60,238 bases of DNA, from contig NZ_LXFF01000024.1 in NCBI RefSeq assembly GCF_001655775.1, positions 1 to 60,238 on the forward strand, in the 5' to 3' direction. The notes below the pieces were generated by a model, which did no database searches, was not told the DNA's origin, and worked only from the letters and a program-made list of their open reading frames with translations. Position 1 is the first letter of the stretch, and each line of letters begins with the position of its first letter. The translations under genes were made by a program, and so were the position numbers. Positions 44,034 through 46,144 of this stretch are shown here, piece after piece. Source of the stretch: Candidatus Arthromitus sp. SFB-turkey (GTDB lineage: Bacteria; Bacillota; Clostridia; Clostridiales; Clostridiaceae).

Positions 44034-44846
44034 TTGTATAAGTTAATATCTATTGATATGGATGGTACTCTTTTAAATAGTCAAGGAAAACTTTCTAATG
44101 AAAATATTTCTGCTATAAAAAATGCAATTAATAAAGGGGTAAAAATTGTTTTTACAACTGGAAGAGGAATCAGAGCTATAGTTGAATTTATAAATGAAGT
44201 TGGACTCGGCGATAGAGAGGAATATGCTATAACAAATAATGGTGTATCTTTGTACAATACTAAAACTCTAAAATGTTTAAAAGCGAATTTAGTTAGTGGA
44301 AATGATTTAAAAACTTTGTGTAATACTGGTATTGAGCTTGGAGCAAAACTTCATATTTATGATTTTAATACTGAAGGATGTATTGTACTAGAAGATAATG
44401 AATTTACTCAGTTTGAGAGAAAGCATATAGGTATGCCGGTTTTTATTGAGCCAAATTTTTATAAAAATATTGATGATAGTAAAAAAGCGTTTAAAGTTTT
44501 ATATTTAGGAAAAGAAGATAAAATAAATGAAATTCAAAAAAATGTACCGAACTTTATATATGAAAAATTTGCTGTTGTTCGTAGTCTTCCTATAGTACTT
44601 GAGTTGTTTCATAAAGATTGTAATAAGGGAAATGCTGTTAGAGATTTAGCTAATATGTTTAATATTTCAAGAGAGGAAATTATTTCGATTGGTGACCAGC
44701 AAAATGATTTTGAAATGATAAAATTTGCAGGTTTAGGTGTCGCAATGGGGAATGCAATTGATGAAATTAAGAATGTTGCAGATTATATAACAGATACTAA
44801 TGATAATAATGGAGTAGCAAAAGTTATAAATGAATTTGTGTTATAA
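44034..44846 (+). CDS. HAD phosphatase, Cof family
   Basis: GGAGG at 44022-44026 fits TTG 44034 (7 bases) and not TTG 44028. The 270-residue enzyme has the HAD motifs ISIDMDGTLL (nucleophile Asp), a Thr in FTTGRG, a Lys region in HKDCNKGNAV and SIGDQQNDFEMIKFAG. The cap is of the Cof type (C2). Substrates are likely small sugar phosphates or cofactors such as FMN. It is not usual between coaD and ylbJ; it might be a recent insertion in this order. Confidence 0.88.
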   Translation: MYKLISIDMDGTLLNSQGKLSNENISAIKNAINKGVKIVFTTGRGIRAIVEFINEVGLGDREEYAITNNGVSLYNTKTLKCLKANLVSGNDLKTLCNTGIELGAKLHIYDFNTEGCIVLEDNEFTQFERKHIGMPVFIEPNFYKNIDDSKKAFKVLYLGKEDKINEIQKNVPNFIYEKFAVVRSLPIVLELFHKDCNKGNAVRDLANMFNISREEIISIGDQQNDFEMIKFAGLGVAMGNAIDEIKNVADYITDTNDNNGVAKVINEFVL

Positions 44847-44886: not shown

Positions 44887-44922
44887 GCTGTAAAAAATAA
44901 TTATAAAATTTTAAAATTGTAC

Positions 44923-44978
44923 TTGCATTATTTTTGAAAATTTGTTATATTATATTTATGATAATGATAATCACTATT
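44923..44978 (+). promoter_or_regulatory. Promoter with Fur box, no gene downstream
   Basis: TTGCAT (44923-44928), 17 bases and TATATT (44946-44951) make a near-consensus promoter. GATAATGATAATCACTATT at 44960-44978 matches 17 of 19 bases of the classical Fur box. It would cover the start site and block transcription when iron is present. No protein-coding frame follows before the terminator at 45100. Confidence 0.75.
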
Positions 44979-45140
44979 AAATAAATTTTAAAAGTCATTT
45001 TAATTTATCCATACGAGATTTGTTAGTTTTGAAATATTATGTTAAATTTTTATACCTCCAAAATATAAAGATTTGCAAATTATTAATTTGAAACTAACAT
45101 GAAAAAACCTCTGCAAATTGTTTTGTAGAGGTTTTTTCAT
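44958..45140 (+). ncRNA. Candidate Fur-regulated small RNA
   Basis: From the predicted start near 44958 to the terminator there are about 180 bases with no ORF. GTTAGTTTTGAA (45022-45033) can pair with TTTGAAACTAAC (45087-45098), giving a 12-bp stem (two G-U pairs). The enclosed loop holds CCTCC (45055-45059), the complement of the Shine-Dalgarno core. The 3' end is a strong Rho-independent terminator. The plan (Fur promoter, C-rich loop, terminator) resembles iron-sparing RNAs such as RyhB and FsrA in logic; sequence similarity to them was not tested. Transcription is predicted, not shown. Confidence 0.5.
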
Positions 45141-45141
45141 G
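45097..45141. terminator. Bidirectional Rho-independent terminator
   Basis: GAAAAAACCTCTGCAAA - TTGT - TTTGTAGAGGTTTTTTC forms a long stem. It serves the small RNA on the left and ylbJ on the minus strand. Confidence 0.9.
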
Positions 45142-46144
45142 TAAAAATTATACAACTTATGTAAGTGATAATAAATGAGATTATAGATTGAATTAATTTG
45201 TAAAATATATATTTGTTTAATTTGAAAGATTGATTTTTATAAACAAACGAGTAACATTGAAGAATTATACAAATTCCACTAAATGCACAAAGAGCACTTA
45301 TAATAGAAAGTTTTAATGGAATAGAAATATTTGTTTGACTTAATAAATTTATCCCATTGGTTATTTCAAAAAAGCCAATTACTAAAGATTTTAGTATTGG
45401 AAAATTATTAAATAAAATTTGAGAGTAAATGTTATTTATAAGAATTTCTTTTATTAGAGAAAACAGTATGATAAATCCTCCAACAATTGAACAAGTTTTT
45501 ATAGCATTTTCTAATGAAGCTTTTAATATTTCCCCAAAATTATTTTTTGTGTTTGTACTTTTGGGAAGTTCATTTATTAAAATGTCTTTTTTATATGGAA
45601 TTAAAAAAGATATTAGTATACATGATAAATAATTTGCAATTAGAAGTATGTATCCTAGGGTTTTGTTATTAAGCATTGATACTCCAACTGTTCCTATTAA
45701 AAATAAAGGACTTGCATTCGATGCGATGTTTATCATGCGTTGAAATTCATTGTTTGAAATTAAATTTTTATTATGTAAATCATTTAGATATTTTGTTCCA
45801 AGAGGATATCCACAAATAAAACTTACCATTAAAGGGAAAATTGAATTTTTAGAAATTTTTAGAGGTTTAATTAATAACTTTCCAAATAGTTTTCCAAATA
45901 TGTTTATCCCACCGTAGTTTATTAAAATATTTGTTAAAATCAAAAATGGAAATAATGTTGGAAATACGGATTTTATAAAAAGATTTGTTCCTGATGATAC
46001 AGATTCAATTGATGATTTTGGAAATATTACTAAGTATGTGATTATGATTGTTATTAAAAATGTAACTAATACGTTTATTTTTGATTTTTCACATATATAG
46101 AAAAATATTAGAATTACTATAGAAAAAATAAAAAAAATTAACAA
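45137..46144 (-). CDS. ylbJ: Sporulation integral membrane protein YlbJ
   Basis: The 335-residue protein has about eight hydrophobic segments and the YlbJ motifs: VFPTLFPFLILTNILI, GGINIFGKLFGKLL, VSFICGYPLGTKYLNDL and NASPLFLIGTVG. YlbJ is needed for a normal spore in Bacillus. It is shorter than the Bacillus protein (about 400), mainly at the N terminus. It stands next to tmcAL on the minus strand, the usual order. Confidence 0.88.
   Translation of the reverse strand: MLIFFIFSIVILIFFYICEKSKINVLVTFLITIIITYLVIFPKSSIESVSSGTNLFIKSVFPTLFPFLILTNILINYGGINIFGKLFGKLLIKPLKISKNSIFPLMVSFICGYPLGTKYLNDLHNKNLISNNEFQRMINIASNASPLFLIGTVGVSMLNNKTLGYILLIANYLSCILISFLIPYKKDILINELPKSTNTKNNFGEILKASLENAIKTCSIVGGFIILFSLIKEILINNIYSQILFNNFPILKSLVIGFFEITNGINLLSQTNISIPLKLSIISALCAFSGICIILQCYSFVYKNQSFKLNKYIFYKLIQSIISFIITYISCIIFT

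Follow-up and report, generated by a model that had tools for sequence, protein, structure and literature searches.

A putative Fur-controlled small RNA with an anti-Shine-Dalgarno loop in SFB

Described systems and the SFB locus

FsrA of Bacillus subtilis is repressed by Fur, and its C-rich motif binds Shine-Dalgarno sequences, lowering iron proteins; it acts with the helper proteins FbpABC (PMC9410917). IsrR of Staphylococcus is conserved genus-wide; it carries two Fur boxes, and its three C-rich regions are located in hairpin loops. Its targets are iron proteins, and catalase is repressed by direct binding (PMC9410917, PMC12607789). RyhB of enteric bacteria is Hfq-dependent (PMC9410917).

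The window analysed here is the whole 60,238-base stretch that forms contig 24 of the genome of the turkey segmented filamentous bacterium (SFB) 'Candidatus Arthromitus' UMNCA01 (G000; GCA_001655775.1; 1,631,326 bases in 41 contigs). Two further genomes of the same genus were compared, G001 (one contig, 1,515,556 bases) and G002 (approximately 1.7 Mb). As the genus is common to both and to the source, we take them to be SFB. We suggest, with a probability of about 0.72, that one locus in the window is the gene of a Fur-repressed, trans-acting, probably iron-sparing small RNA of SFB. Its anatomy, conservation and complementarity are seen in the sequence, and from these we infer transcription, Fur binding, repression and targets.

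Like FsrA, the SFB RNA is predicted to be repressed by Fur and carries a C-rich anti-Shine-Dalgarno motif; unlike FsrA, which is described with FbpABC, it lies in a window where no Rfam family reaches its gathering score. With IsrR it shares a Fur box, a C-rich hairpin loop and genus-wide conservation, and its candidate targets include iron proteins, with catalase as a weak one, but it has one Fur box, one CCUCC loop and other gene neighbours than those described for IsrR. These two RNAs were compared by description, and no similarity was seen. The weak Rfam matches in 44900-45160 fall mostly on the terminator; one of them bears the name IsrR but denotes the isiA antisense RNA of cyanobacteria, and it scores 12.3 bits where 52 would be needed. 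Fur repression and iron sparing, both predicted here, are also traits of RyhB; unlike the RyhB of the cited description, the SFB RNA has no Rfam match at gathering score and comes from genomes in which we found no Hfq (PF17209; 0/3 SFB genomes, with the control positive in 5 of 14 named genomes). The SFB RNA probably works without Hfq. The Rfam search of the window gave no match at gathering score that would indicate descent from RyhB, FsrA or IsrR. It appears to follow the FsrA/IsrR plan, with no detected descent from a described family.

The first-pass annotation of this DNA held that such an RNA was not described for this kind of organism. This agrees with the open-access literature on Arthromitus or SFB, small RNAs and Fur, where we found no SFB small RNA and, among the titles, none naming a Fur-controlled small RNA of clostridia or C. 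difficile.

Organization of the locus

The locus is the gap between a gene encoding a Cof-type HAD hydrolase, ending at 44846, and the convergent ylbJ, ending at 45137. Promoter, Fur box, stem-loop and terminator follow one another in this gap and form a stand-alone unit of approximately 180 nt with the following features:

44923..44951, + strand: predicted promoter TTGCAT-17-TATATT, with the -35 element TTGCAT at 44923-44928 and the -10 element TATATT at 44946-44951; the spacing is kept in G001 and G002
44960..44978, + strand: Fur box over the predicted start site, 17/19 to consensus; 15/17 columns (44962-44978) invariant in three species
44959..45138, + strand: predicted small RNA of approximately 180 nt, its ends placed from promoter and terminator; relatives align over the full length
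45021..45099, + strand: long stem, 45021-45036 with 45081-45099, around an inner hairpin; seen in the fold and in two-sided changes
45044..45074, + strand: inner hairpin, 45044-45054 with 45064-45074, bearing the anti-Shine-Dalgarno loop CCUCCAAAA at 45055-45063; 17/18 columns of the core (45050-45067) invariant
45100..45139, + strand: terminator hairpin with T run; 25/36 columns (45103-45138) invariant, and 15/15 modelled pairs kept in 100% of cells

With an A run on one side of its hairpin and a T run on the other, the terminator at 45100-45139 is symmetric; it extends to the ylbJ stop codon, so both converging units may share it.

The earlier statement that no gene follows the promoter holds: frames of at least 50 aa do not start in the gap, and no conserved ORF accounts for the unit. 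Evidence against a small RNA would have been, as named earlier, a minus-strand gene whose ribosome binding site is the GGAGG complement. Behind this complement we found no start of a frame of at least 40 aa in any of the three genomes.

Promoter, Fur box and Fur-family regulators

TTGCAT-17-TATATT is present, but taken alone it does not rise above chance: a consensus scan gave 8 promoter-like sites where 8.5 are expected, and this one was not among them. The call is supported by G001 and G002, which share TTGNNN-17-TATNNT directly before their Fur box, the spacing between -35 and -10 being 17 in three of three genomes.

The near-perfect Fur box reported on the start site was recovered, 44960-44978 matching the consensus GATAATGATAATCATTATC at 17/19 positions. 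Only 3 places in the 1.63-Mb G000 have two mismatches or fewer, and the other two lie within open frames. With up to three mismatches, G000 gives 10 matches (both strands counted) versus 5 for the reversed control; among its 3-mismatch places one (G000:C12) is intergenic, upstream of a transporter-like gene. The same threshold yields three places in G001, namely the box of the small RNA and two in open frames.

A Fur-like regulator is encoded. There are 4 Fur-family genes in G000, 3 in G001 and 3 in G002. One of the G000 proteins is closest to Bacillus-type Fur at 167 bits (below the cut-off of 220), two are closest to PerR, and the fourth is closest to Fur at 66 bits, its gene adjoining, by eye, a zinc-type ABC transporter. 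Upstream of fecCD-type iron transporter genes, all three genomes have Fur-like sites that differ from the 19-mer at 3 to 5 positions:

L072 (G002:C94), 1501-1519: Fur-like site before a fecCD-type gene
L086 (G000:C16), 2510-2534: Fur-like site before a fecCD-type gene
L236 (G001), 1202-1226: Fur-like site before a fecCD-type gene

A PerR-like gene directly adjoins a catalase gene at L087 (G000:C16, 1781-3501) and L089 (G001, 1-1947). In G002 we saw three Fur-family genes only and no such pair.

Predicted structure

The 12-pair stem proposed earlier (45022-45033 with 45087-45098) is present, two of its pairs being G-U, and the full fold goes beyond it, with 45021-45036 pairing with 45081-45099 and an inner hairpin within. 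CCTCC does lie in the enclosed loop, and its position can be refined: the inner hairpin has a 9-nt apical loop that begins with these five bases. The fold energy of 44961-45140 is -43.7 kcal/mol, compared with -21.1 (sd 3.25) for shuffled sequences (z -6.95), and the 3' parts fold alike in three species (z -8.0, -7.5 and -5.9). In the window CCUCC is predicted to be unpaired with a probability of 0.95-1.0; the corresponding ranges are 0.93-1.0 for G002 and 0.81-1.0 for G001. The terminator described as strong is plain as a hairpin in the fold (45100-45139), but a strict terminator scan listed none, perhaps because the long stem contains an A run with which the T run pairs.

An exposed C-rich region complementary to the Shine-Dalgarno sequence, as expected of an RNA of the FsrA/IsrR type, is found in the predicted fold of three species. 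A mark of Fur-repressed iron-sparing small RNAs in general, namely a non-coding gene that stands alone, ends in a terminator and has a Fur box on its promoter, is likewise present by sequence.

Conservation and covariation

A DNA search covered 38 genomes: the own genome, 2 of the same genus, 20 of the same family and 15 of the same order. Full-length matches were obtained in the own and the two same-genus genomes only (for the latter two, E 4e-29 over 228 bases and 1e-19 over 232). At E up to 0.1 some match appears in 37/38 genomes; these are short and AT-rich. The HAD and YlbJ genes flank the unit in G001 and G002 too, making it syntenic in 3/3.

In the three-way alignment, the invariant columns amount to 15/17 in the Fur box, 17/18 in the anti-Shine-Dalgarno core and 25/36 in the terminator. 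The promoter has 15/29 (it is gapped by the alignment), the 5' stem arm 8/13, and the stretches between together with the 3' arm 15/42, 6/16, 4/18 and 4/13. Near-invariance is limited to the Fur box, the anti-Shine-Dalgarno hairpin and the terminator, and the drifting arms (4/18, 4/13) still pair.

Covariation of the stem, proposed earlier as a check, was observed in three sequences, where two-sided changes affect 7 pairs (mean of 3.3 in shuffles, with 0/500 as high). The test used alignment A5 and the 39 pairs of an RNAalifold structure derived from the same three sequences. This structure has 92.2% of cells paired (helix 2 only 66.7%), and slid structures give 0 to 2 two-sided changes. Given so few sequences, which also supplied the structure, we regard the covariation as support and not as proof. 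Syntenic full-length matches, two-sided changes in the arms and the confinement of near-invariance to a few elements all argue for a Fur-controlled anti-Shine-Dalgarno small RNA.

Distribution

A covariance model searched against 206 Clostridiaceae genomes gave three strong matches (101.6-105.8 bits), and these are the three SFB. Nothing comparable was found in the 203 non-SFB Clostridiaceae genomes, where the best match scored 40.5 bits; some match at E up to 1 occurs in 84/206 genomes. It should be noted that the search was run with stricter filters and 17 candidates scored per genome, settings under which weak relatives could be lost.

The best 17 non-SFB loci were rejected as homologs. They are mostly plain terminators, and none combines CCTCC with a good Fur box. 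L167 resembles coding DNA. L165 (G053:C1:424240-427291), from another Clostridiaceae genome, has a 3-mismatch Fur box around 1394, but the box faces a flavodoxin-like gene, which is adjoined by a second flavodoxin-like gene. A further match in the own genome (C13), whose stretch has neither a Fur box nor a CCUCC loop, was judged by eye to be AT-rich noise. A YlbJ scan of public genome contigs returned one locus, the contig of G002 itself (JAGHEJ010000024.1, MAG.106).

Proposed mechanism and predicted targets

We suggest that, when iron is present, Fur sits on 44960-44978 and blocks the promoter. When iron is lacking, a terminated RNA of approximately 180 nt would be made, displaying CCUCCAAAA on a stiff hairpin. 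The loop and, after opening of the hairpin, the neighbouring bases would pair with the Shine-Dalgarno region of selected mRNAs. Pairing would stop their translation and iron would be spared.

Targets were evaluated by the duplex energy of the 31-nt loop region with ribosome-site regions. A 400-kb part of G001 (359 genes) and the window (57 genes) served as background, with starts set by a simple script. Rubrerythrin of G001 (Pfam Rubrerythrin plus a rubredoxin-like domain) forms a 19-bp duplex of -24.2 kcal/mol, and 1/359 background genes is as good, a HAD-type gene that heads the G001 list with -24.8 kcal/mol. For G000 rubrerythrin the value is -21.4 kcal/mol (0/57 background genes as good), a selected case found by pattern search. 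The G001 ortholog is absent from the pattern hits that picked the G000 copy, and is the fairer test. The 14-mer TTRYATTTTGGAGG occurs in G001 at exactly two places, in the RNA gene and before rubrerythrin, with 0.04 to 0.27 expected. No close ortholog of this target was seen in G002.

In G000 the exact 14-mer is confined to the RNA gene and to a gene of the MntP family (Pfam Mntp). The duplex with the MntP-like gene has -28.0 kcal/mol in G000, -22.0 in G001 and -12.3 in G002, where it is unsupported. Among the complements of the RNA loop in the turkey genome, the ribosome site of the MntP-family gene is the longest. The gene stands just before the Fur-family gene beside the zinc-type ABC transporter (L084, G000:C33:21000-25000, 1404-2454). 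We considered, and rejected, that the RNA controls a fur gene by way of the MntP-like gene: the Fur-family gene behind it adjoins, by eye, the zinc-type transporter, and the best Fur is another copy. The 13-mer TTTGGAGGTATAA is also found upstream of non-iron genes, encoding a secreted-type protein (G000) and a CoA-binding-type protein (G002).

The 9-mer TGGAGGTAT stands before an ATG at 12, 8 and 11 places in the three genomes, versus 4, 2 and 1 for the control, and at 1/359 background sites. A frame of at least 25 aa follows in 29/31 cases, and a few places are apparently inside genes. Five of the 31 belong to iron proteins, namely ferredoxin in three genomes and rubrerythrin and catalase in G000; the G001 catalase is without the 9-mer. 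By eye, ferredoxin is the only gene with TGGAGGTAT in all three genomes. The 9-mer is also the ribosome site of two orthologs, one in G000 and one in G002, that encode membrane-anchored proteins of unknown function (L234, L215, site 1501).

As a control, ACCUCC was kept and its flanks were shuffled 500 times, counting how often the observed energy was reached. The counts were 2/500 (G001) and 21/500 (G000) for rubrerythrin, and 0/500 (G000), 11/500 (G001) and 212/500 (G002) for the MntP-like gene. Ferredoxin, with 127 (G001), 219 (G000) and 99 (G002) of 500, and the G000 catalase, with 160/500, did no better than controls. By this control, pairing extends past the Shine-Dalgarno core for rubrerythrin and, in two species, for the MntP-like gene, but not for ferredoxin or catalase. 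A joint test of iron genes had no power in the G001 sample, where 1/359 genes has the cysteine motif used, at rank 262. In order of falling evidence, the likely targets predicted from sequence are rubrerythrin, the MntP-like manganese exporter, an FdxA-like ferredoxin and catalase, of which ferredoxin and catalase are weak candidates after the shuffle control.

Alternative explanations

An AT-rich gap, a terminator and a stray Fur-like match could in principle coincide by chance, as the promoter scan at chance level and the short AT-rich matches given by a lax E-value in 37/38 genomes might suggest. Full-length matches in two same-genus genomes (E 4e-29, 1e-19), conservation in patches and two-sided changes speak so strongly against this that we give it almost no credence. 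Hardly more credible is the mRNA of a very short peptide. Two frames do cross the core in the window, one of 9 codons starting with ATG and one of 23 codons starting with TTG, but in the relatives start, frame and peptide of both are lost, no Shine-Dalgarno sequence is seen by eye before them, and the changes preserve pairing, not codons.

PerR or a zinc-type Fur relative might bind the box, and the signal would then be peroxide or zinc. Fur-family box consensus motifs resemble one another, and the three genomes encode 4, 3 and 3 proteins of this family, two of those in G000 being closest to PerR. We nevertheless find this improbable, as the site fits the classical Fur consensus at 17/19 and Fur-like sites (3 to 5 mismatches) precede fecCD-type genes in three genomes. 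Somewhat easier to accept, though still unlikely, is a Fur-controlled RNA whose loop serves chiefly a single special mRNA (e.g. the MntP-like one), RNA titration or protein binding, and not iron sparing. The strongest complement in G000 is indeed the MntP-like gene (-28.0 kcal/mol, 0/500 shuffled flanks as good), and ferredoxin and catalase are unspecific by energy; yet the sole exact non-self 14-mer match in G001 is rubrerythrin, an iron protein, and the MntP-like pairing is missing in G002. Our preferred reading is a Fur-repressed and probably iron-sparing small RNA.

Implications for SFB

The epithelium of the ileum is colonised by SFB, which activate the immunity of the host (PMC13153320) and encode several iron importers and no siderophore synthesis (PMC9482736). 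Loss of lipocalin-2, a siderophore binder, alters SFB persistence in mice (PMC8658549).

We speculate, as a possibility to be held lightly, that the small RNA is a genus-specific combined metal switch. It would turn off rubrerythrin, and perhaps ferredoxin and catalase, to save iron, and turn off the MntP-like exporter, keeping manganese as a substitute. Such a switch would tie the redox state of this immune-active commensal to the withholding of iron by the host at the surface of the ileum. An iron-sparing small RNA under Fur would be one more apparently independent case of this kind, in genomes without detected Hfq. For an organism that is hard to grow and study, the locus offers a concrete and testable path by which iron shortage could act on gene control.
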